From contig NZ_JAEMVD010000001.1 of assembly GCF_029215975.1 (NCBI RefSeq), positions 62,001-126,000 on the forward strand: DNA of 64,000 nucleotides. The letters are read 5' to 3'. Below the pieces are notes generated by a model. It saw only the letters and a program-made list of their open reading frames with translations, ran no database searches and had not been told where the DNA came from. Positions 31,223 through 50,914 of the stretch are shown here, piece after piece. Positions within the stretch are counted from its first letter, which is position 1; the number at the start of each line of letters is the position of its first letter. Both the position numbers and the translations under genes were made by a program. This DNA is from Sulfurimonas sp. SAG-AH-194-C20. Lineage in GTDB: Bacteria > Campylobacterota > Campylobacteria > Campylobacterales > Sulfurimonadaceae.

Positions 31223-33328
31223 ATGAGACGAAGAAAAGCAAGAACAACATTAGAAGAGTTTGATAAAACACAACTTGTTGATAGTGAGTTAATAGATAAG
31301 ATGTCTTTGTGGATACTGCGTATCATTGTAAAACTAGGTGGGGCAAGAGAGTTCATCGATACAAACAACTGTTTTCGTAACGATAACCTTGCCTACTTTC
31401 TTGAAGTAGGAGTTTTCGTTGATATGGATAGTGAGGAGTTTAAACGCAGACAAGTCCTTGCTATACTCAAAAAAAATTATACTAAATTAGAAAAAAGAAA
31501 AAGATTTACATCTGCGACTCTCCTTACTCAAAATATTCAACAGATTATAAAACTGATGGACTTAAATAGTGTAGAAAAGCAGATCTTAGAATTTTCTGTA
31601 CTTTTAAACCAGTACGAAGTACTCGATGAAGCGGCAGAACTTTTGGGAAATAGTTTAAATACCACACAAGCAAAAAAAGCTCTCTCAGGCATCCTAGATA
31701 TTCCTCTCCAAGATATAAATGCTGCGTTTAAAGCGAACTCAAAATTTAACAAGTCTTCTATCGTCTCCATAGATAAAAATGATACCCATAGTTTAGATAG
31801 AAAGATTCGCATTATTAGTGATAGTTTTGCAGATGATATGCTTAACCTTGATGAAGATGTCTCTGTCATGATAAAAGATGCAGTTCGACCTTGTGATAAA
31901 AGTACTTTAGCACTGAAGGATTATGAGCATATTAAAAATGACATAGATATCGTGATACCCTATCTTGCTAGTGCTATTGCCTCAAAAGAAGAGGGTGTAA
32001 ACATACTCTTTTACGGTTTGCCTGGAACAGGAAAAACAGAACTTGCAAAAACTATTTCACAGGTTTTAGAGACAAAACTATTTGAGATTAGTTATGCCAA
32101 CGAAGATGAAGAGGCGATAGATGGTTATGAGAGATTAAAAGCATTCAAAATAGCACAGTCACTTTTAGGTAATCAAAACATCCTGCTTATGTATGATGAG
32201 GCGGAGGATATATTTAACAGTAGTGATAGTCCTTTTGCACCTAAACGCCAAGATAACAAGGCATGGTTAAACAGAATCCTTGAGACAAATAGCATTCCCA
32301 CTATCTGGATAACTAACAATATCCACAGTATTGATAACGCTATGGTTAGACGCTTTGACTTTAGTGTAGAGATACCCATACCGAACAAAAAAAAGCGTGC
32401 TCAAATCATCAAAAACTACTCCAACAACTTACTAGATGAGAAGAGCATAAATGTCTTAGCACAAAACGAAAACATAGCACCAGCACTTATAACTCGAGCG
32501 ACAAAGGTAGTCAGTAGCTTAGAAACAAAGGACAAAGCAAAAGCCTTTACACAAGTGTTAAACAACACTCTCAAAGCACAAGGGCACAAAGAGATAAAGG
32601 AAAAAATAGCCACACTTTTACCAAATGTCTATGACCCTAAGTTCATCAACACTACAACGAACTTAGAACTTTTAACAAAGGGCATACAAAAACACCAAAA
32701 CGCGAGACTCTGTCTTTATGGTGCTGCGGGAACTGGTAAAAGTGCTTATGGGAGATACATAGCTGAGAGTCTAAACAAACCACTACTGCTTAAAAAAGGA
32801 AGTGATTTGATAAGCATGTATGTCGGTGGCACTGAGAAAAATATAGCTGCTGCGTTTACTGAGGCTAAAGAAGAAAAAGCAGTCTTAGTTTTTGATGAGG
32901 TAGATAGTTTCTTAGCAGATAGAACGCAGGCAAAGCAGAGTTGGGAAGTGACACAGGTAAACGAGATGCTCGTACAGATGGAGAATTTTGAGGGTATATT
33001 TATAGCGACGACTAATCTCATGGATAACCTTGACAAAGCAAGTCTAAGAAGATTTGATCTAAAACTTGAGTTTGACTACTTGAAATCCGAGCAGTCATGG
33101 AATATGTTTCTCTCTTACTGTAAAGACTTGAACTTAAAAAAACCATCTGTCGCATTTAAAAAAAGAGTAAAGAACTTAAAATACCTAACCCCAGGAGACT
33201 TTGCAGCAGTAACAAGACAGAACAGATTTCGCCCTATAAGTGATGTGAAAGATTTTATAAGTAGACTTGAGGATGAGGTAGCTGTTAAGCATGAGGAGAG
33301 TGGGAAGGTTATGGGGTTTTTATCATAA
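31223..33328 (+). CDS. Tandem AAA+ ATPase (two AAA modules)
   Basis: FYGLPGTGKTELAKT / ILLMYDEAEDIF and LYGAAGTGKSAYGRY / VLVFDEVDSFL. Confidence 0.88.
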   Translation: MRRRKARTTLEEFDKTQLVDSELIDKMSLWILRIIVKLGGAREFIDTNNCFRNDNLAYFLEVGVFVDMDSEEFKRRQVLAILKKNYTKLEKRKRFTSATLLTQNIQQIIKLMDLNSVEKQILEFSVLLNQYEVLDEAAELLGNSLNTTQAKKALSGILDIPLQDINAAFKANSKFNKSSIVSIDKNDTHSLDRKIRIISDSFADDMLNLDEDVSVMIKDAVRPCDKSTLALKDYEHIKNDIDIVIPYLASAIASKEEGVNILFYGLPGTGKTELAKTISQVLETKLFEISYANEDEEAIDGYERLKAFKIAQSLLGNQNILLMYDEAEDIFNSSDSPFAPKRQDNKAWLNRILETNSIPTIWITNNIHSIDNAMVRRFDFSVEIPIPNKKKRAQIIKNYSNNLLDEKSINVLAQNENIAPALITRATKVVSSLETKDKAKAFTQVLNNTLKAQGHKEIKEKIATLLPNVYDPKFINTTTNLELLTKGIQKHQNARLCLYGAAGTGKSAYGRYIAESLNKPLLLKKGSDLISMYVGGTEKNIAAAFTEAKEEKAVLVFDEVDSFLADRTQAKQSWEVTQVNEMLVQMENFEGIFIATTNLMDNLDKASLRRFDLKLEFDYLKSEQSWNMFLSYCKDLNLKKPSVAFKKRVKNLKYLTPGDFAAVTRQNRFRPISDVKDFISRLEDEVAVKHEESGKVMGFLS

Positions 33329-33837
33329 TGATCGGTTCTAGCCATAATGAAGATACGAAAGAATTTCATAAATATATAGATACTACAAAGTTTAGTAAGG
33401 AGATAGAAGAAGCTATCAAGGGTATGCTTAGAGTAGTTTTAACAAATGAGGAAAATGATATAAATCTTGATTTTGAAGATTTTAAAATTATTTTAAGTCA
33501 TGGTGGAATGGTATTTAGTGGTATTGGTGAGTATGAAGGGAAAAGTGCAGCGATAGAAGCTGTACAGTTAGCCATAAAAAATTCATCTTTGGATTACAGT
33601 TTAATGGATAAAATTACAGGGGTCTTGGTGCATTTTGTAATACATCCAGACTTAGAAATTATAAATCTTGCTGAAGCAATGGAGCTTATAAACGAAAATG
33701 CTAATGAGGAAGCTGAGATTATCTTTGGAACTACAACTAAGAACTCAGTTAGTAAGAGCTGTGTAAAAGCGACTGTTTTGTTTACAGGTTATGAAAAAAA
33801 TGAGTATAAAAATACCATACTAAATAATATCGAATAA
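33328..33837 (+). CDS. Stand-alone FtsZ C-terminal-domain-like protein without GTPase domain
   Basis: INLDFEDFKIILSHGGMVFSGIGEYEGKSAAIEAVQLAI..ITGVLVHFVIHPDLEIINLAEAMELI..EEAEIIFGTTTKN..VKATVLFTGYE matches the FtsZ C-domain pattern; no GGGTGTG tubulin signature; TAATG overlap with the AAA+ gene. Confidence 0.65.
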   Translation: MIGSSHNEDTKEFHKYIDTTKFSKEIEEAIKGMLRVVLTNEENDINLDFEDFKIILSHGGMVFSGIGEYEGKSAAIEAVQLAIKNSSLDYSLMDKITGVLVHFVIHPDLEIINLAEAMELINENANEEAEIIFGTTTKNSVSKSCVKATVLFTGYEKNEYKNTILNNIE

Positions 33838-33863
33838 GTAGTAATTATAACTTTTTAAATAAA

Positions 33864-33881
33864 CAGACATAAAGCTGTCAA
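33864..33881 (+). promoter_or_regulatory. 18-bp element CAGACATAAAGCTGTCAA (copy 2)
   Basis: Identical to 31163-31180 and at almost the same distance (61 nt) from ATG 33925. Confidence 0.6.
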
Positions 33882-33924
33882 ACATAAAGACTAAACTTCC
33901 ATATACAAACTATAGGAGTTGTTT

Positions 33925-34335
33925 ATGCGTTTTAAATACCAAGTTGTTAAAGAGTTATGTTCGCTAATGTTGGATGCTCAAAAAAAGATACAAGCTACTA
34001 AAGATATGACAAAAAATATAGAGAATTTAAAATGGAGTAATGAACAACATAATTTAAGACTAAAGGACTATCAATATCAATTTACAGATTTTTGTAATGT
34101 CCCAAATACAATACTTCTAGATGAAGTGATAAAAATACTGAATGAATTAGTAAATTCTAAATCAAAACTAGCTGATTTTGATGAACTTAAGTCTGATACG
34201 GAGTGGCTTAAAGAGTACTATACTGACGAGTCCTGGAATGATGTTACAAGATGGCTTTCAAATATTGACGGAACACTTCGTGAGACTTTTTCTGAGTATA
34301 TGGAAGCTCTTCAAGAGGTACATCGTAATGTGTAA
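33925..34335 (+). CDS. Hypothetical protein
   Basis: Good RBS (taggagtt) before ATG 33925; helical, no recognised domain. Confidence 0.65.
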   Translation: MRFKYQVVKELCSLMLDAQKKIQATKDMTKNIENLKWSNEQHNLRLKDYQYQFTDFCNVPNTILLDEVIKILNELVNSKSKLADFDELKSDTEWLKEYYTDESWNDVTRWLSNIDGTLRETFSEYMEALQEVHRNV

Positions 34336-34606
34336 TGTATAAGAATAATTAATCCAATACTATAGAATTTTTAGTTAGATACTATAATTATTAGGATAAA
34401 ATTAATAAATATTCAAAAGCTTGTGGATGCGATGAAGAATACTCAGCAGAATTTTTTGGACTGTTGTTATGTTAAGTTTAGATAGACAGAGAGGAAACTT
34501 GCTTCTTTATAAAGTGATATATAGCAAGAGACATGGTATATTTTAGAGAAAAAGAAGTTACTGAAACGAAAGCCACTGTTTCTCTAGCGGATTTAAAAAA
34601 ATAAGT

Positions 34607-35923
34607 TTGGAGGTTAGTATGAAGTATTATCACATGCAAATGCACCCTGATAATTTAAATGGTTATAAAAAAGAAGAAATATTGAATCTTGTAATGATGG
34701 GTTATATAGGGATAGATATAGATAGTGAGTATGCGAGCAAATTAGGAATTAATGATAAGCCTTTTACGGACTGGGGAGAAACATTACAAGTTTATGATAA
34801 AACACACAATTCATGGGATAAACAAATAACTAGTTTTTTAAGTCTGAAAAAGAATGATATTGTCGTTGTGAGACATGGCGAAAAATTTATTGCATTGGTG
34901 AAGATAGTAGGTGATTATCAATTTAATGAAATAGAAAACATTTGGTTTAGACATATGTATCAAATAAAAATATTATCAACATATAATGATTTTAAGGAAG
35001 AATATAAAATTCCAAAAGCTCAAGGAACATTTGAAGTTTCTAAAACAGGTGAAACATTTAAAGTTATTAATAAGATATATAAAAAGACTATAAAGGGTAA
35101 AGATATGCAAGAAAAAATAAACTTACTAAAAGACAGAAATCAAATTATATTGCAAGGACCTCCAGGGACTGGTAAAACAATGGTAGCTAAACAGATGGCT
35201 ATTTCAATAATTGATAGCACTTTACCTTTAGAAACAAATAATGAGATAAAGAACAGTTTAAAAACAATAAAAAAGCGAGTAAAACTTATTCAATTTCATC
35301 CATCATATAGTTATGAGGATTTTGTAAGAGGTATTGTAGCTGATTCTAGTAGTAAAACAATTACTTATAAAACGGAAAATAAAGTTTTAGCAGAGATGGC
35401 AAAAAAAGCTCTTAAAGATAAAAATAATGACTATATTTTAATTATAGATGAAATTAATAGAGCTAATCTTTCTTCGGTTTTAGGTGAGCTTATTTATGCT
35501 TTAGAATATAGAGATGAAGCTGTTGAAAGTATGTATGCTTTAGAAGATGGTAGTAGAGAAATCACTTTACCATCTAATCTATATATAATTGGGACTATGA
35601 ATACGGCAGATAGAAGTATTGGACATATTGATTATGCAATTCGAAGACGATTTGCTTTTGAGACCATTTTACCGAATAAAGATGCAATTAATTTAAAAGA
35701 GGGTGTGAAATTATTTGAAGCAGTAGAAGAAATCTTTATAGATACATCTCCTGAATTTGACAAATACGATATTTTATTAGGGCATTCTTATTTTATTGCT
35801 AAAGATACAGAAGAATTGAAAAATAAAGTTGAATACCAAATTAAACCACTTTTAAAAGAGTATGTAAAAGATGGTGTTTTGATTGACACTGCTGAATTAA
35901 GAGCAAAAATAAATACTCTATAA
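34607..35923 (+). CDS. mcrB: McrB-like AAA+ restriction NTPase
   Basis: LQGPPGTGKTMVAKQ, HPSYSYEDFVRG, LIIDEINRANLSSVLGELIYALEYR, GTMNTADRSIGHIDYAIRRRF. Confidence 0.9.
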   Translation: MEVSMKYYHMQMHPDNLNGYKKEEILNLVMMGYIGIDIDSEYASKLGINDKPFTDWGETLQVYDKTHNSWDKQITSFLSLKKNDIVVVRHGEKFIALVKIVGDYQFNEIENIWFRHMYQIKILSTYNDFKEEYKIPKAQGTFEVSKTGETFKVINKIYKKTIKGKDMQEKINLLKDRNQIILQGPPGTGKTMVAKQMAISIIDSTLPLETNNEIKNSLKTIKKRVKLIQFHPSYSYEDFVRGIVADSSSKTITYKTENKVLAEMAKKALKDKNNDYILIIDEINRANLSSVLGELIYALEYRDEAVESMYALEDGSREITLPSNLYIIGTMNTADRSIGHIDYAIRRRFAFETILPNKDAINLKEGVKLFEAVEEIFIDTSPEFDKYDILLGHSYFIAKDTEELKNKVEYQIKPLLKEYVKDGVLIDTAELRAKINTL

Positions 35924-37215
35924 TGAAATATATAGCTAAGTCTTTAGAGTATTCAAAAGATAATTTTGTTGTTCATAAAAGAGATAAGACAGCTTGGAAT
36001 GAAGAAGAATTGTCTAAATTATCTAAAGAACCAAATAAGAAATATTTAGGCTTATCAAAAAAGTATGACTATGGTAATGATAAAATATGTGTAAAACCCT
36101 ATTACTATATTGGTTACAGATGGTTTGATGAAAAGAAAGAGGAATGTATCCGTATCTCTCCTAAAAAATCAAAAGATGGAAAACAAGCTGATTATTTGAA
36201 AATGTTTTTAACCTGCCTAAAAGATCCCATTGTTTCAAAAAAAATGAATGATTGCTATGGGATTAAATTTAATGAAAAATGGATCGAAATAGAAGAAAAT
36301 GAAGATGAGATAACACCATTAATAATATTACAATTTTTAAAAGTTGTACATAATATTTCAAAAAAAGGTTTAAAAAAAGGTTATACAAAAATTACTGAAA
36401 ACCTTACCTCTAAAATAAAAGGTAAAATATTAGTCAATCAAACTATAAAGCAGAACCATTTTAAAAATAGGTTAGATAAAACTATTTGTAATCATCAGAT
36501 TTTTACAATTGACTGTATAGAGAATCAGATATTAAAAACTGCTCTTTTTCAATGTAGTAGAAATTTACAAAATATAAATAATGATGATATAACAAAACTA
36601 TTAAAGTTTAACTTGAATAGTTTTGAGTTAGTTAATACAAAAGAAATTTTCAAGAGTGATTTTTCAAAAATAAAATATTCACCCTTTTACAAGGATTACA
36701 AAGAGGCTTTAATATTGGCTCAAATGATATTTAAACGATTTGGATTTACTCTTAATAGCTCAAAAAAAGATGAGAAAATAAAAATACCACCTTTTTATAT
36801 TGATATGCCTAAGCTTTTTGAGAGATATGTTGAAGTAAAATTAAGAGAAGTTTACCCTGAAATTCTTGATGGGAATACACTAGATATAGACTTAAAATTT
36901 AAAATGAGACCTGATTTTTTATTGGCATCACAGAACATGATAATTGATGCAAAGTATAAATATTGGTTTTATAAAAACAATATCAATGATGACTTTAAGG
37001 ATGACTTTCAACAACTAAGTCTTTATGGTAGAGAAAGTAACATACGACAATATATAAATTTAGGAGATAGTAATAGAGAAGCAAATATTTTATTTATATA
37101 TCCTGAAAAATCAGCTGAAGAATATGTAAATAATATTTACAAAAATAAAGTGGATGGCTTTAATAATATATATAAATTAGGAATAAAAATTCCTTCAAAG
37201 GAAAGTGAAAGATGA
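35923..37215 (+). CDS. mcrC: McrC-like restriction endonuclease subunit
   Basis: Coupled to McrB; MRPDFLLASQNMIIDAKYKYW PD-(D/E)xK-type motif. Confidence 0.88.
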   Translation: MKYIAKSLEYSKDNFVVHKRDKTAWNEEELSKLSKEPNKKYLGLSKKYDYGNDKICVKPYYYIGYRWFDEKKEECIRISPKKSKDGKQADYLKMFLTCLKDPIVSKKMNDCYGIKFNEKWIEIEENEDEITPLIILQFLKVVHNISKKGLKKGYTKITENLTSKIKGKILVNQTIKQNHFKNRLDKTICNHQIFTIDCIENQILKTALFQCSRNLQNINNDDITKLLKFNLNSFELVNTKEIFKSDFSKIKYSPFYKDYKEALILAQMIFKRFGFTLNSSKKDEKIKIPPFYIDMPKLFERYVEVKLREVYPEILDGNTLDIDLKFKMRPDFLLASQNMIIDAKYKYWFYKNNINDDFKDDFQQLSLYGRESNIRQYINLGDSNREANILFIYPEKSAEEYVNNIYKNKVDGFNNIYKLGIKIPSKESER

Positions 37216-38681
37216 GCCTATCTAAATCTCAATACATAAGAGGCTTGCAATGTCACAAATCTTTATGGTTATATAAAAATAGATACGGTTTAAGAGATAC
37301 TCCTGACTCTCAAGCCAAGTCAAACTTTAACATAGGTTATCAAGTGGGTGATTTGGCAAAAGAGTTGTTTCCTGATGGGGTAGAGATAGTCTTTGATGGT
37401 TCTGACTTTAAGGGGATGATAGCGAAGACTAAAGAACTTATAGCTAATGGTGCAGAGGTCATCTATGAGGCTGCGTTTAGTGATAATGGTATCTTTGCTA
37501 TGGCAGACATCTTAGTCAAAAATGCTAAGGCTTGGGATATTTACGAGGTTAAGGCCTCTACTCACACTAAAGAGTACCACAAAAATGATACAGCCGTTCA
37601 GTGGTATGCACTCTCAAACACCATCACACTTAACCGCGCTTATGTGGTGCATATAAACAACAAGTATGTACGAAATGGTGAGTTGGATGTTAAGGCACTA
37701 TTGAGTATTGATGATATTACAGATATTGTATTACAAAAGCAAGAGAGTATACCACTTGAACTTCTTGAGATGGAGGAGATGCTTGAGGGTGCTGTGCCAA
37801 ACATTGACATCGGGAAGCACTGTAGCGACCCTTATGGGTGTGATTTTTCTTCGCACTGCTGGAGTCATCTGCCTAAAGAAGACTCAGTATTTGACATCTC
37901 TTATGCTATGGGAAAACAATGGAAACTTTACTATCAGGGGATACTCAGCATAAATGATGTTCCTAATAATTTTCACCTTGGTAAAAATGCTCGTACTCAG
38001 ATACGGCATCATAAATCACAAGAGATAAAGATAGACAAAAAAAAGATACAAGAGTTTTTAGAAACTATAGAGTACCCTATAAACTTCTTTGATTTTGAAA
38101 CTTTTCAAAATGCTATTCCAAGGTTTGATAATCAAAGACCTTATTCTCAGATGCCATTTCAGTATTCACTACATATCTTACATGAAGATGGAACTTTAGA
38201 GCATAAAGAGTTTTTAGGAGATGAAAATAGTGACCCTAGAAGACCGTTATCAGAGCAGATGTTAAAAGAGATTACACCAACTGGTTCAATCATAGCTTTT
38301 AATCAATCGTTTGAGATAACACAGATTAAGAACTTAGCTTTAGTGTGTTCTGACATTAGTGATGAACTTTTGGCTTTAAATGAGAGATTTATAGACCTTG
38401 CACACCCATTCCAATATAAACACTACTATCATCCAAAATTTAACGGTAAATACTCTATAAAAATTGTTTTACCAACACTCTTTCCAGATGATGATGAACT
38501 CGACTATAAAAAACTTGGCTCTATTCAAAATGGTGGGGATGCTATGGATACTTTTGCCAACTTACACCTACTCAAGGACAAGAGTCTCTTAGTCGGGATA
38601 AAAAAAGACCTACTTGCTTACTGTCGGCTTGATACTTTGGCTATGGTTCGGATTTGGGAAAAGTTAAGAAATATATATTAG
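37212..38681 (+). CDS. DUF2779-type nuclease (Cas4/RecB-like N-terminus plus DnaQ-like exonuclease)
   Basis: SKSQYIRGLQCHKSLWLYK; AMADILVKNAKAWDIYEVKAST; DPYGCDFSSHCW; NFFDFETFQNAIP; CRLDTLAMV. Confidence 0.85.
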   Translation: MSLSKSQYIRGLQCHKSLWLYKNRYGLRDTPDSQAKSNFNIGYQVGDLAKELFPDGVEIVFDGSDFKGMIAKTKELIANGAEVIYEAAFSDNGIFAMADILVKNAKAWDIYEVKASTHTKEYHKNDTAVQWYALSNTITLNRAYVVHINNKYVRNGELDVKALLSIDDITDIVLQKQESIPLELLEMEEMLEGAVPNIDIGKHCSDPYGCDFSSHCWSHLPKEDSVFDISYAMGKQWKLYYQGILSINDVPNNFHLGKNARTQIRHHKSQEIKIDKKKIQEFLETIEYPINFFDFETFQNAIPRFDNQRPYSQMPFQYSLHILHEDGTLEHKEFLGDENSDPRRPLSEQMLKEITPTGSIIAFNQSFEITQIKNLALVCSDISDELLALNERFIDLAHPFQYKHYYHPKFNGKYSIKIVLPTLFPDDDELDYKKLGSIQNGGDAMDTFANLHLLKDKSLLVGIKKDLLAYCRLDTLAMVRIWEKLRNIY

Positions 38682-38690
38682 GAAAAGAAA

Positions 38691-39152
38691 ATGGAACTTG
38701 TTACAAACAATGGAACTAAAAAGCATAAACACCATATTATAGAATTAATTAAATCATCAGATCGAATAATCATTAGTTCAGGATGGATGAAGATGGATGG
38801 ATTAAAAAAGCTTAAAATATGTTTAGATATCGCTGTAAAAAACAATGCCAAAATTACAATATACTCAGACCATCAAAACACTAAGGATGGGGTAAGAGAA
38901 TTTCTAAATACATATAAAACAATAGAGCATATAATAACAAAAAAGAATGAAACTTTACATTCAAAGATATATTATTTTGAACAAGAAAAGAGTTTTACTA
39001 CATTAATTGGATCTGCTAATATCACTCATGGTGGGTTATATTCTAGTGATGAGCTATCTGTAAAAATTACAGGACTAATTGGTGATAAGAATTACTTGAG
39101 TATTTGGAAATATTTAAGTGATTTGTCTGTAAAATATCAAAAGCATGATTAA
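38691..39152 (+). CDS. Phospholipase D-like (single HxK) nuclease
   Basis: LHSKIYYFEQEKSFTTLIGSANITHGGL. Confidence 0.75.
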   Translation: MELVTNNGTKKHKHHIIELIKSSDRIIISSGWMKMDGLKKLKICLDIAVKNNAKITIYSDHQNTKDGVREFLNTYKTIEHIITKKNETLHSKIYYFEQEKSFTTLIGSANITHGGLYSSDELSVKITGLIGDKNYLSIWKYLSDLSVKYQKHD

Positions 39153-39191
39153 AAAATCAAAGAATTTACTTCATTCAACAGCGAGAAATAA

Positions 39192-40109
39192 ATGGCATAT
39201 AAACACGACTACGATAAAATATTAACACGATTAACAACGATACTATCACGTTTAAATGATGGTGAAGCACTCTCTGTTAAAGAGTTGGCAACAGAGTTCA
39301 ATACTAGTCCTCGAACGATTCAAAGAGATTTTAATGAACGACTTCTCTCTTTTCCTATCTATCAAGAAAACAAAAAATGGAAGATGCAAGATGGCTTTAG
39401 AGTGGAGAAGACTAAATCTCTTGAAGATGAGATAGTTCTAGACATCATTGAAAAAATCACCGAAGGCATTGGTGGTACTTTTTCGACCAAAGCCCACACC
39501 TTAATTTCAAAAATCAAAAATGAAGATTTTAACCCTATCTACACGAAGTTAAATATAGAAGATATTAGTGAAAAGTTTGGAGATATACAAGTTTTAGAAA
39601 CTGCAATTAGAGAAAAAAGGAAGGTAGAGTACTCTTACAACAATGAAAAGCATCCTCCTTACACAACGACTATTAAACCTCTGAAAATTGTGAATTTTGA
39701 AGGGTTTTGGTATTTAATCGCACTAAGAAATGACACACTTAAAAAATACTACCTCAAAAATATCTCTCATACTAAGATAAGAGATGAGTATTTTATAACG
39801 GGTGATGACCTAGACAAACTTCTTGATGATTCCATATCTGTGTGGTTTCAAAAAGATGTAAAACCTTTTGAAGTAAAACTATTTGCAAATAAAGTGGCAG
39901 CCAAGTTTTTTAAACGCCGTCCTCTTCCAACACAAAGTATAGAGTCTATACATCAAGATGGCACTATGGAGTTTAGTGTGAAGATAACCCATGAGATGGA
40001 AATACTTCCTATAATAAAGTACTGGATTCCTCATCTTTTTGTACTTGAGCCCCAATGGATAAAAGAGATGATTCAAAAAGACTTGAAACAGTATGCACAA
40101 GAGATGTAA
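39192..40109 (+). CDS. WYL-domain HTH transcriptional regulator
   Basis: VKELATEFNTSPRTIQRDFNERL; KVEYSYNNEKHPPYTTTIKPLKIVNFEGFWYLIAL. Confidence 0.88.
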   Translation: MAYKHDYDKILTRLTTILSRLNDGEALSVKELATEFNTSPRTIQRDFNERLLSFPIYQENKKWKMQDGFRVEKTKSLEDEIVLDIIEKITEGIGGTFSTKAHTLISKIKNEDFNPIYTKLNIEDISEKFGDIQVLETAIREKRKVEYSYNNEKHPPYTTTIKPLKIVNFEGFWYLIALRNDTLKKYYLKNISHTKIRDEYFITGDDLDKLLDDSISVWFQKDVKPFEVKLFANKVAAKFFKRRPLPTQSIESIHQDGTMEFSVKITHEMEILPIIKYWIPHLFVLEPQWIKEMIQKDLKQYAQEM

Positions 40110-46759: not shown

Positions 46760-46896
46760 TGTTGACTCCTTTTGTACCCCAAGTTACCACGTTAAAAACA
46801 GCTTAAATACCAATGCTTTTTTCATAAATTCCCTTATTAAATTTCCGACTTAATAGTAAATATAGGTGCTTAAAACACTTCTCAAACTATGGTATA

Positions 46897-48025
46897 TTGG
46901 GAGTAAACAAAGATTTATTTACAAATGATTGTAAAAAAAGCTCAAAAATATGTATAAATTTTCAATCTAAAAATGTTATTTCTAAGGGTCTAAGAAGAGG
47001 AATAAAACGATATTTTTGTAAAGATTGCAAAGTGTCTTTCAGCTCAAAAAGAAGACCAGAGCAACAACAAAAAATTATTTTCGAAGAGTACTTTTTACAT
47101 CGTCAAACTCTAAAACAATTATTCGTTAAATATGCTAGATCAATTAGCTGGATTGTGAAGCAAAGAGATGAATATATTGTTGATTTTAAAGTTCATACCC
47201 TCAAGGGGCACCCCGTAATCCACGACCTGTAAATCTAATTTGTGATGCTACTTTTTATGGAAAGAGGAAAGACGGGGTGCCCCTTGAGGGTATAAGTTAG
47301 GCACCTTAGTATTTAAAGATAATGAGACTAAAGAAATACTCATTTGGAAGCATATTCAAAGTGAAATAGTTCAAGACTACAAATATTTAAAGGAAGAGCT
47401 ACTGGCTCGCAGATATACAATCACAAGCGCAACTTTAGATGGTAAAAAAGGCTTGTATAAGGCCTTTAAAGATATTCCAATACAAATGTGTACCGCAAGG
47501 GCATCAACACCATTTCCATCAAAAGAAGATTGTACAGCGATATTTAACTATGAGACCAAAATTACAAGCTAGTAAAGATCTTTAGAAAATAGTTTCGAGG
47601 CTAACTCTTTCAACAGAGAAAAACTTCACAAATAAACTAGATGTACCCCAAGAGTATTTCATCCCTTCGGTCAGGGCAATGGTACGAAAATTATAAAGAT
47701 TTTTTAGAGGAAAAAAGTGTATCAAACACTACTGGAAAACTTCACTATACCCATCCAAGAATTAGAGCAGCTTATGGGATGCCCCTTGAGGGTACAGAAG
47801 TTTACGAACAAATTTACTTTACCTTTTTACCTATAAAAACTACAAGCATTTATCCATCTCAAATACAACAAATGCACTCGTACCGCAAGGGCATAAAAAA
47901 AGGTAGAGTATTTTCACATATGAAAAATATGATTAGTTTGCATCGCGGACTAAGTAAAAGTTTGAAGCTAAATTTAGTTGATTATTATTTGGTGAATTAT
48001 AAGAAAAAGCAGAAAACTAAGCACC
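46897..48025 (+). pseudogene. Disrupted transposase (copy 1)
   Basis: Reading frame restored only by removing 20+20+19+34+20+19 nt; also an in-frame TAG after DL (gatctttag). Confidence 0.85.
47195..47293. repeat. 22-bp perfect inverted repeat formed by two opposite 20-nt insertions
   Basis: ATACCCTCAAGGGGCACCCCGT (47195-47216) / ACGGGGTGCCCCTTGAGGGTAT (47272-47293). Confidence 0.9.
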
Positions 48026-48214
48026 CGTTTTTACTATTAAGTCTCTTTATCAATCATACTCTCTCCAAATATTTATTTGAAGTTATAGTATCTTTTTTAC
48101 TTAATAAAGTGGTGCACTTTTAGTTTGCACTACTGGTGTATTTTACCTTTGCACTTGACAATAAGTCGCTGCTAGGCTACTTATTGGCTACTATGTTTTG
48201 TTGTATCTGAACTT

Positions 48215-48496
48215 TTAAGACGGTTTGTTTTGATTGAAAATATTTAGTATTTCAATACTGTTGTCTTCTAAATTGATCTCGTAGTTTATAGTGTGTTTCT
48301 TATAGATTAAATCTCGTATATTTTTATCACTAAAATAAATTGATTGTCTATATTTAAATGGAAAATTTGGAATATTTTTTATGAGTTTATCTAATTCTTG
48401 TTGAAATTTTTTACTAGCACTAACTTTATCTTTGGCGATATTCTGTAAAGTTACCAAAAGATTTATTTGAAATTTTCTTGAACGAATTATTTTCAT
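48215..48496 (-). CDS. ParE/RelE-type toxin
   Basis: FQQELDKLIKNIPNFPFKYRQSIYFSDKNIRDLIYKKHTINYEI. Confidence 0.75.
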   Translation of the reverse strand: MKIIRSRKFQINLLVTLQNIAKDKVSASKKFQQELDKLIKNIPNFPFKYRQSIYFSDKNIRDLIYKKHTINYEINLEDNSIEILNIFNQNKPS

Positions 48497-48498
48497 AC

Positions 48499-48744
48499 TT
48501 ATTTTTCAAATTCTAAAAAAAACTGCTCTATCTCTTTTTCATATTGTTCTTCAGATAACATTTCCATTTTACCACTTTTAATGTCATCTCTAATTTGATG
48601 TAACTTTTTTTGTCTCTCATAAAAATAAGGGTCAAGTTCTAAATTCTTATCTTGTTTTATTACTATATTGTCACTATGATTATTAACATAGTTCATAAAG
48701 TCACCAACATAATCATCTTGAACTTGAATTGCTATATTTTGCAT
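48499..48744 (-). CDS. Cognate antitoxin
   Basis: Two nt upstream of the toxin; small charged protein MQNIAIQVQDDYVGDFMNYVNN. Confidence 0.7.
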   Translation of the reverse strand: MQNIAIQVQDDYVGDFMNYVNNHSDNIVIKQDKNLELDPYFYERQKKLHQIRDDIKSGKMEMLSEEQYEKEIEQFFLEFEK

Positions 48745-48793
48745 AATGTACTCCACTTTTGAATTAAGCACATTATAGCAAAAATTCAGTAAA

Positions 48794-49189
48794 TTAAGCT
48801 CCTGTTATAATCATAACTATTTCTACAAAATTCTCTTCTACGGTATCATCAAATGAAGTTGCAAATGCCATGGCACATTCGTCATGAATAACTTCATATG
48901 CAATATCTATATGCTTCTGTATATCTACAACACTATAGTGAGCAGATATATGAAAATAAAAAAAGACACAACTAGCATTGGCTAAGATATCGCTATTTGT
49001 TTCACATAATGTAGATATTGACTTTTGTATTGCAGACTCACCATGAGTTATACATCTGTCAATATATGCCGACCCTCCAACTTCCATAAAGTCTATATAG
49101 TCTGTATGACTAAGATTAAAATCTACGGCTTTTGGGCTTGTGAGTTGTTTAAATTCATTTACTAGTTCTTCTCTTGATAGTTTAGTCAA
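48794..49189 (-). CDS. Second stand-alone FtsZ C-terminal-domain-like protein
   Basis: VDFNLSHTDYIDFMEVGGSAYIDRCITHGESAIQKSIS..ILANASCVFFYFHISAHYSVVDIQKHIDIAYEVIHDECAMAFATSFDDTVEENFVEIVMIITGA. Confidence 0.55.
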   Translation of the reverse strand: MTKLSREELVNEFKQLTSPKAVDFNLSHTDYIDFMEVGGSAYIDRCITHGESAIQKSISTLCETNSDILANASCVFFYFHISAHYSVVDIQKHIDIAYEVIHDECAMAFATSFDDTVEENFVEIVMIITGA

Positions 49190-49234
49190 TTTTATCCTTT
49201 AATTTACATTGTCAGATAGGCTAATATAATGATA

Positions 49235-49450
49235 TTAGCCTACATTCCAAAATGATGCAATTCCCCAAATAACAAGAAAAATACCAATAAAGGGAGCAAA
49301 TACAACAAGATTAACTAATGCAATTCTTGCAAGTACTCCGCCCACTCCAGCACCTAAGATAGCTCCACCAATTCCATATGATGAATATCCAAAGTATATG
49401 CCAATTATTAAGCCAATTAATATAAAAAACTGCATATTAATTCTTTTCAC
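49235..49450 (-). CDS. Small glycine-rich membrane protein
   Basis: IGIYFGYSSYGIGGAILGAGVGGVLARIALVN. Confidence 0.6.
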   Translation of the reverse strand: MKRINMQFFILIGLIIGIYFGYSSYGIGGAILGAGVGGVLARIALVNLVVFAPFIGIFLVIWGIASFWNVG

Positions 49451-49655
49451 ATTTTGGAGAACATTTTTGACAAAGAGTATAACTTGTTAAGTTATTATTT
49501 TCAAGAAATAAAAAAACATTTTTACAAGTTTTTAAATTTTCACTATACTTTTGATTAATACTTTGTTTATTACCAATAACTTGATGTAGTGAAGTACAGT
49601 TTTTCTCGTGAACTATATATTTGTTGTTCGGCACATTATAAGAAACTTTATACAT
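49437..49655 (-). CDS. Small Cys-containing hypothetical protein
   Basis: TLCQKCSPKCEKN; overlaps the next CDS. Confidence 0.5.
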   Translation of the reverse strand: MYKVSYNVPNNKYIVHEKNCTSLHQVIGNKQSINQKYSENLKTCKNVFLFLENNNLTSYTLCQKCSPKCEKN

Positions 49656-49762
49656 TTAAACCTTAGAATTTGAATTTACCTTATCTTTCAATATAGGCAT
49701 ATTCAAATTTCCGACTTAATAGTAAATATAGGTGCTTAAAACACTTCTCAAACTATGGTATA

Positions 49763-50843
49763 TTGGGAGTAAACAAAGATTTATTTACAAATGATTGTAA
49801 AAAAAGCTCAAAAATATGTATAAATTTTCAATCTAAAAATGTTATTTCTAAGGGTCTAAGAAGAGGAATAAAACGATATTTTTGTAAAGATTGCAAAGTG
49901 TCTTTCAGCTCAAAAAGAAGACCAGAGCAACAACAAAAAATTATTTTCGAAGAGTACTTTTTACATCGTCAAACTCTAAAACAATTATTCGTTAAATATG
50001 CTAGATCAATTAGCTGGATTGTGAAGCAAAGAGATGAATATATTGTTGATTTTAAAGTTCATACCCTCAAGGGGCACCCCGTAATCCACGACCTGTAAAT
50101 CTAATTTGTGATGCTACTTTTTATGGAAAGAGGAAAGACGGGGTGCCCCTTGAGGGTATAAGTTAGGCACCTTAGTATTTAAAGATAATGAGACTAAAGA
50201 AATACTCATTTGGAAGCATATTCAAAGTGAAATAGTTCAAGACTACAAATATTTAAAGGAAGAGCTACTGGCTCGAGGATATACAATCACAAGCGCAACT
50301 TTAGATGGTAAAAAAGGCTTGTATAAGGCCTTTAAAGATATTCCAATACAAATGTGTACCGCAAGGGCATCAACACCATTTCCATCAAAAGAAGATTGTA
50401 CAGCGATATTTAACTATGAGACCAAAACTACAAGCTAGTAAAGATCTTAAGAAAATAGTTTCACGACTTACTCAGACTACAGAGAAAAACTTCACCCAAA
50501 AACTAGATGAGTGGCATGGTATTTACAAAGACTTTTTAGATGAAAAAAGCACCTCTTCAACAACAAGTAAACTTCATTATACTCATCCAAGAATTAGAGC
50601 TGCTTATAGAAGCTTACAAACAAATTTACCTTACCTTTTTACATACAAAAACTATAAACATTTATCAATTTTATATATGCCCTTGCGGTACAAACACAAC
50701 AAATGCACTTGTACCGCAAGGGCATAAAAAAAGGTGGAGTGTTCTCACACATGAAAAATATGATTAGTCTGCATCGTGGATTGAGTAAAAGTTTGAAGCT
50801 GAATTTAGTTGATTATTATTTGGTGAATTATAAGAAAAAGTAG
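49763..50843 (+). pseudogene. Disrupted transposase (copy 2)
   Basis: Frame restored by removing 20+20+19+19+19 nt; reconstructed LICDATFYG, SATLDGKKGLYKAF and NTTNALEGGVFSHMKN. Confidence 0.85.
50672..50730. repeat. Opposed 19-nt insertions forming an inverted repeat
   Basis: ATGCCCTTGCGGTAC ... GTACCGCAAGGGCAT. Confidence 0.9.
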
Positions 50844-50914
50844 AAAAGTAAGCACCCGTTTTTACTATTAAGTCCATTTTCATTATAAGTAGTTTGTTTT
50901 ATTGTGATGTATAT

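Follow-up and report, generated by a model that had tools for sequence, protein, structure and literature searches.

Can the C-terminal domain (CTD) of FtsZ, separated from the GTPase domain, persist as a gene of its own, and if so, in what capacity? This question is raised by an open reading frame (ORF) of the uncultured bacterium Sulfurimonas sp. SAG-AH-194-C20 that lies in a 64,000-nucleotide stretch of contig NZ_JAEMVD010000001.1 (the window; coordinates given below without a locus name refer to it). The product of this ORF, denoted P0001, is by homology the C-terminal domain of FtsZ, comprising the end of H7, the T7 loop and the CTD. The interpretation we favor, with a probability of about 0.6, is that P0001 is a mobile, diverged mimic of the FtsZ surface that belongs to a patchy accessory family. 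A preliminary description of this DNA had placed an FtsZ C-terminal-like protein at the same positions; the ORF is indeed found there, on the minus strand, and the residues quoted in that description are correct.

48794..49189, minus strand: P0001, stand-alone FtsZ C-terminal domain protein, 131 amino acids (aa)
49192..49200 (coordinates approximate), minus strand: Shine-Dalgarno-like AAAGGA, identified by sequence, five bases 5' of the TTG start codon

The TTG start codon of P0001 is preceded by AAAGGATAAAATTG. An in-frame stop lies directly upstream, and the DNA before it is occupied by two other small ORFs, so that P0001 is not the 3' half of an overlooked longer FtsZ gene and is isolated and GTPase-less, as had been proposed. 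The protein begins at the end of H7, with a short N-terminal strand and a helix (LSREELVNEF) where H7 would be, followed by a remnant of the T7 loop (DFNLSHTD) and then by the whole alpha/beta fold of the CTD up to its last strand (MIITGA), where it stops. The N-terminal GTPase domain with the tubulin signature GGGTGTG, the C-terminal linker and the conserved C-terminal peptide are all missing.

Compared with the C-terminal domain of FtsZ (PF12327; approximately 213-323 of TIGR00065), P0001 has the same order of helices and strands across 109-119 aligned residues, and shares the T7-loop aspartate equivalent to E. coli D212, an IxGTSxDD-like strand and the TGx end. E. coli residue numbers were transferred to P0001 and the other mimics by motif, using the E. 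coli sequence and the residue names of PMC13423816. The Pfam FtsZ_C profile matches P0001 with 14.7 bits (E 0.039), below the cut-off of 27 bits, which would be compatible with P0001 being an unrelated small alpha/beta protein that resembles FtsZ by chance. The probability of such a coincidence is negligible, given that it is excluded by a shuffle control, by profile-profile comparison and by structure prediction. Specifically, profiles that did not include P0001 recover it with 45 bits (A5, built from eight genus or family FtsZ proteins) and 34 bits (A2, built from four other CTD-only proteins; E 4e-10), whereas 2,000 composition shuffles of P0001 reach at most 9-10 bits against A2 and A5. 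Among the 193 segments of the window that are open for at least 60 codons, only P0001 and the 33328-33837 product match these profiles. TIGR00065 matches P0001 with E 0.0045, and a direct search of the family genomes with P0001 retrieves ordinary FtsZ with E values as low as 1e-8 to 1e-10 (approximately 25-30% identity, query residues 21-130). In hhalign comparisons with FtsZ, P0001 alone yields E 1e-8 and a profile of short CTD-only proteins E 1e-25; the latter profile, made without FtsZ, matches only FtsZ when searched against PDB sequences. A match in G034 C46 turned out to be a false lead: the intact ORF at that place resembles a ribosomal protein, and the FtsZ-like frame contains stops.

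The AlphaFold model of P0001 obtained with FtsZ rows in the alignment has a predicted local distance difference test score (pLDDT) of 87.5 and a predicted template modeling score (pTM) of 0.82; with CTD-only rows alone, these values are 82.2 and 0.78, respectively. In Foldseek searches with both models, the 50 best PDB matches are all FtsZ, the best template modeling scores being 0.73-0.79. P0001 probably still folds. Thus, profile-profile comparison, AlphaFold, Foldseek and the PDB-sequence search all lead to FtsZ only, in agreement with the FtsZ_C-like assignment of the preliminary description; the comparison of profiles and structures that it had proposed as a check recovers FtsZ_C, the sole sub-threshold result being the single-sequence Pfam scan.

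The genome that encodes P0001 also encodes a normal FtsZ and two further CTD-only proteins (hereafter, orphans), namely, P0002 and a protein of 158 aa beside SIR2 and WYL genes.

33328..33837, plus strand: P0002, sister orphan, 169 aa, with a clear FtsZ_C match (1e-14) and a full T7 loop (NDINLDFEDF)

Like P0001, P0002 and its Sulfurimonas relatives consist of the CTD only, with H7 and T7, and belong to the same family by profile; unlike P0001, they retain the motifs NDINLDxxD and HPD, extend further at the N-terminus and occur in WYL/AAA islands. The idea that two orphans in one window signify a family of GTPase-less FtsZ relatives is borne out: orphans (73-198 aa) or GTPase-degraded FtsZ paralogs (253-323 aa) are present in at least 24 of the 135 Sulfurimonas genomes, and further orphans are scattered, at a low rate, over other families of Campylobacterota (in a sample of the class). 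In the 253-323-aa paralogs, the losses comprise the T3 segment, the C-terminal tail and the tubulin signature. The FtsZ paralogs of L041, L042, L045 and L161 lack the T3 segment and the tail; in these, the tubulin signature is degraded and the T7 loop is largely intact. The short (130-aa) subgroup has a common N-terminal M-x-x-LS-x-EE motif that is present in P0001: the LS-x-EE helix reads MTKLSREELVNEF in P0001, MRKLTQEELEQEF in L166 and MKILSKEEFAIEL in L164, and LS-x-EE is found in L165 and L176 as well. The main set of Sulfurimonas orphans may comprise one or more lineages. Pfam, NCBIfam, PADLOC and PHROGs contain no description of a CTD-only FtsZ family, and none was found in a literature search that missed most subscription papers.

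The genomic neighborhoods of these genes are distinctive. A WYL regulator is located within 8.5 kb, and often adjacent, at 27 of the 39 orphan or paralog loci compared to 0 of the 56 FtsZ control loci, as counted in the available sequence, with control loci having no less than 8 kb of flanking sequence altogether and with one of the 39 loci (L176) found via its WYL gene. One more WYL gene, additional to the 27, lies 7.9 kb away, just past the stretch examined, in G001. WYL genes of this kind are rare, with any at E 1e-20 present in 54 of the 135 genomes, and their association with orphans is seen again in four further families of the order (L192; L194 and L195; L196; L201). The genes around the orphan loci appear to encode SIR2, GIY-YIG, PD-(D/E)XK and DUF262 proteins (assigned by inspection) as well as DUF2779, McrBC and double-AAA ATPase. 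WYL regulators of the BrxR family co-localize with phage defense systems in 48-61% of cases (PMC9122601); the Sulfurimonas WYL clade is not assigned to BrxR. Because the half-FtsZ genes usually sit beside genes of defense-type regulators, these observations suggest that FtsZ look-alikes are retained by bacteria for use in their conflicts with viruses. For P0001 itself, it is the context of its relatives alone that points to a possible role as an anti-phage defense component; neither PADLOC nor PHROGs yields a match to P0001.

Typical members of the family are under purifying selection: in nine pairwise comparisons of such orphans or paralogs, the ratio of nonsynonymous to synonymous substitution rates (dN/dS) is 0.20-0.38. 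Gp0.4 of phage T7 binds FtsZ at a surface formed by E. coli residues 199-206, 262-270 and 292-303 (PMC13423816, 2026), and the surface protected by Gp0.4, together with the aspartates of the T7 loop, was taken as the interface set, representing the face through which FtsZ subunits contact each other. Residues that are invariant in FtsZ are better kept at this interface than elsewhere in 20 of the 21 mimics, which, these sequences being related, do not amount to 20 independent tests. The P0002-type orphans keep 14-17 of the 19 FtsZ-invariant interface positions compared to 24-27 of the 50 others; the respective counts are 16/19 and 24/50 for P0002, 15/19 and 12/50 for L044, and 14/19 and 9/43 for L166. 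Each of the 21 mimics has the T7 aspartate that corresponds to E. coli D212.

The favored interpretation starts with ftsZ copies that lost the GTPase half on more than one occasion. The resulting genes are usually found in variable islands, with a WYL regulator and defense-type effectors as neighbors, and their products would present the synergy-loop face of FtsZ while being unable to polymerize. Phage proteins often target FtsZ. One plausible use of the mimics, in line with the CapRel-Ebc precedent (see below) and the defense-type context, is to soak up or sense phage inhibitors of FtsZ; another is to cap FtsZ filaments. P0001 has drifted the farthest, with much of the face lost, and recombination of insertion sequences (IS) or cassettes probably moved its gene next to a ParE pair. 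A more specific proposal, which we put forward tentatively and consider rather unlikely, is that Campylobacterota possess WYL-controlled immune modules in which the sensor is a polymerization-dead FtsZ synergy-loop domain, serving as a decoy for phage FtsZ inhibitors, and the effectors (SIR2, AAA ATPase, GIY-YIG, PD-(D/E)XK, DUF262) are exchangeable, P0001 being a fast-evolving member.

The pattern of conservation also bears on a different possibility, that the mimics are effectors of division arrest. In this case, the T7 loop of the isolated CTD would enter the nucleotide pocket of an FtsZ subunit, and the filament end would thereby be capped; division would stop once the mimic is induced, for instance, by the WYL regulator when a phage infects. 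Most members keep the two loops that make the longitudinal contact, namely, T7 with the catalytic aspartate and S9-H10, while the rest of the domain diverges; furthermore, the members lack the GTP pocket, so that no subunit could join a mimic on its far side. However, much of the contact face is missing in P0001, and a literature search found no experiment on an isolated CTD. We consider this mechanism possible but doubtful.

Several features of P0001 and its relatives count against the interpretation of P0001 as an FtsZ-surface mimic of an accessory family. The protein fails the NxDxxD pattern of the T7 synergy loop: the asparagine and the distal aspartate, equivalent to D212, are present, but D209 is replaced by serine, and HPD is replaced by SAH. 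With 7 of 19 FtsZ-invariant positions kept at the interface compared to 14 of 47 elsewhere, the face of P0001 is eroded and shows no preferential retention. In the phylogenetic tree, P0001 is the longest branch; it is joined with L166 at 82% support in the Shimodaira-Hasegawa-like approximate likelihood ratio test (SH-aLRT), but these are two long branches meeting, and the placement of P0001 is unreliable. Searches of viral contigs, GTDB genome contigs, plasmids and phages with P0001 alone found no close relative. Several loci lack a WYL gene, although contig ends cut several of these, and the WYL gene nearest to P0001, at 8.7 kb, is outside the 8.5 kb limit. Finally, in two other genomes of Campylobacterota, tandem FtsZ fragments are located next to the genome's own ftsZ (L199:5460-6110 and L200:5017-5511); because these are tandem copies, the tree needs at least three label changes, and they show a route by which CTD-only copies can arise.

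Some of these points would also fit P0001 being a relic, that is, a decaying ftsZ duplicate, stripped of the GTPase half and transported as a passenger of mobile IS or cassettes. The long branch, the eroded motifs, the position between two broken IS copies (see below), the frameshifted (L038) or truncated state of other orphan genes in the genus and the tandem fragments of L199 and L200 are all in line with decay. Conversely, the frame of P0001 is intact and is preceded by a ribosome-binding site, the fold is well predicted using P0001 and its short relatives, the N-terminal LS-x-EE is common to P0001, L164-L166 and L176, and typical members of the family are under purifying selection. On balance, a relic appears unlikely. 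In our favored interpretation, that of a diverged mimic, the word mimic fits the fold and descent of P0001 better than its surface, given that its FtsZ-contact face is poorly kept. P0001 may have ceased to act as its relatives do: the altered surface implies either a change of partner, as expected in an arms race, or decay of the gene.

The immediate surroundings of P0001 consist of small ORFs flanked by IS copies:

48499..48771, minus strand: putative antitoxin of a ParE pair, 90 aa, no family match; ends 2 bases ahead of the toxin start
48215..48496, minus strand: ParE-type toxin, 93 aa (PF05016, E 7.6e-8)
49235..49450, minus strand: small membrane protein, 71 aa, no family
49437..49655, minus strand: cysteine-containing ORF, 72 aa, no family
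46839..48048, plus strand: IS copy 1, with 26-bp terminal inverted repeats and a broken transposase frame
49705..50879, plus strand: IS copy 2, in the same orientation as copy 1 and 89% identical to it over 1.2 kb, with 26-bp terminal repeats and a broken transposase frame
48160..48188, plus strand: AATAAGTCGCTGCTAGGCTACTTATTGGC, a dispersed hairpin repeat located at the 3' end of the ParE toxin-antitoxin pair

These features match the setting given in the preliminary description, which had mentioned a toxin-antitoxin pair, small membrane proteins and IS. P0001 is encoded on the same strand as the putative antitoxin gene and 22 bases upstream of it, as would be expected if it were an accessory part of the ParE pair, such as an additional antitoxin or a third component. 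This relationship is highly improbable: the toxin and the putative antitoxin are conserved as a unit in many Sulfurimonas genomes, where homology stops at the end of P0001 and P0001 is not conserved together with the pair, and most other orphans do not adjoin ParE genes. The stretch around P0001 has a G+C content of 27.5% compared to 34.7% for the window. The hairpin repeat (AATAAGTCGCCGCTAGGCTACTTATTGGC; window positions 48160-48188, L207, L208 and L209) is dispersed between small Sulfurimonas ORFs and adjoins a tyrosine-recombinase-like gene in L207. Such repeats are probable attC sites of chromosomal integrons, and because the hairpin recurs between small ORFs in other genomes, once beside the tyrosine-recombinase-like gene, we infer an integron-like cassette history for the stretch around P0001. 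Within the broken transposase frame, each IS copy contains a perfect inverted repeat of 22 bp (ATACCCTCAAGGGGCACCCCGT), the arms of which are 55 bases apart; the repeat, at 47195-47293 and 50061-50159, is identical in the two copies. Pfam matches of small ORFs to MRP-L27, Furin-like and Cas6_C were set aside as due to chance, and an Rfam scan of the P0001 region produced only spurious microRNA-type matches, on hairpins internal to the IS.

P0002 is embedded in a defense-type island (31223-40109) that encompasses a double-AAA ATPase, P0002, a McrB/McrC-like pair, a DUF2779 protein, a PLD/NgoFVII-like protein and a WYL regulator, and ends next to a MutY-like gene; in the window, the AAA, DUF2779, McrBC, PLD and WYL identities were assigned with Pfam.

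31223..33328, plus strand: double-AAA ATPase, 701 aa, partial match to the IetA profile; overlaps P0002 by one base
39192..40109, plus strand: regulator with a WYL domain, from the clade that accompanies most FtsZ mimics; distance to P0002 5.4 kb and to P0001 8.7 kb

Homologs of the double-AAA ATPase adjoin orphans at several other loci; because the match to the IetA profiles is partial, we do not claim membership in IetAS. Comparison of P0002 with phage records yielded weak matches only (28-36% identity, best E 3e-4), all in unannotated records. Those in the human fecal phage records MT835561, MT839183 and MT835570 (28-35% identity) could be either phage-borne FtsZ-like genes or host contamination.

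Other islands contain additional unusual genes. The L167:83-5616 island includes a WYL gene and a CTD orphan together with two further ORFs. One encodes an FtsZ paralog of 459 aa in which the GTPase motifs are retained and an additional domain, OB-like by inspection, follows at the C-terminus; in the other, of 171 aa, an apparent FtsK-gamma-type domain is fused to an FtsZ-like start. Small leucine-rich-repeat-like proteins are encoded directly before FtsZ-CTD orphans in L164:7167-8044, L165:7502-8265 and L176:8626-10596, and in L176, a gene for a P-loop protein lies between two orphans.

Among known systems, FtsZl-1 and FtsZl-2 (Makarova and Koonin 2010, PMC2875224) resemble the family described here in being proteins of the FtsZ superfamily that function outside cell division and are defined largely by context; their architecture, according to the published description, differs from that of P0001, which is a CTD only. 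The defense interpretation, if true, would make the family more than a variant of known FtsZ-like proteins. SulA and MciZ, which are discussed in PMC13423816, are small proteins that block FtsZ at the filament end, one of the modes proposed for the mimics; unlike the mimics, they are not FtsZ homologs, and the face of FtsZ to which they bind is T7/CTD, opposite to the nucleotide face that a CTD mimic would occupy. Should the mimics act on FtsZ in this manner, they would represent a new class of domain-mimic division regulators. The family keeps just the part of FtsZ that is bound by phage inhibitors, repeatedly beside defense-type WYL regulators, which makes the question of a decoy copy directly testable. 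The closest precedent in this respect is the defense protein CapRel-Ebc, which is triggered by the complex of Gp0.4 with FtsZ (PMC13423816), so that there, too, the synergy-loop surface of FtsZ is tied to phage sensing; the difference is that the co-trigger of CapRel-Ebc is the host's own FtsZ, and the CapRel-Ebc locus encodes no FtsZ copy.
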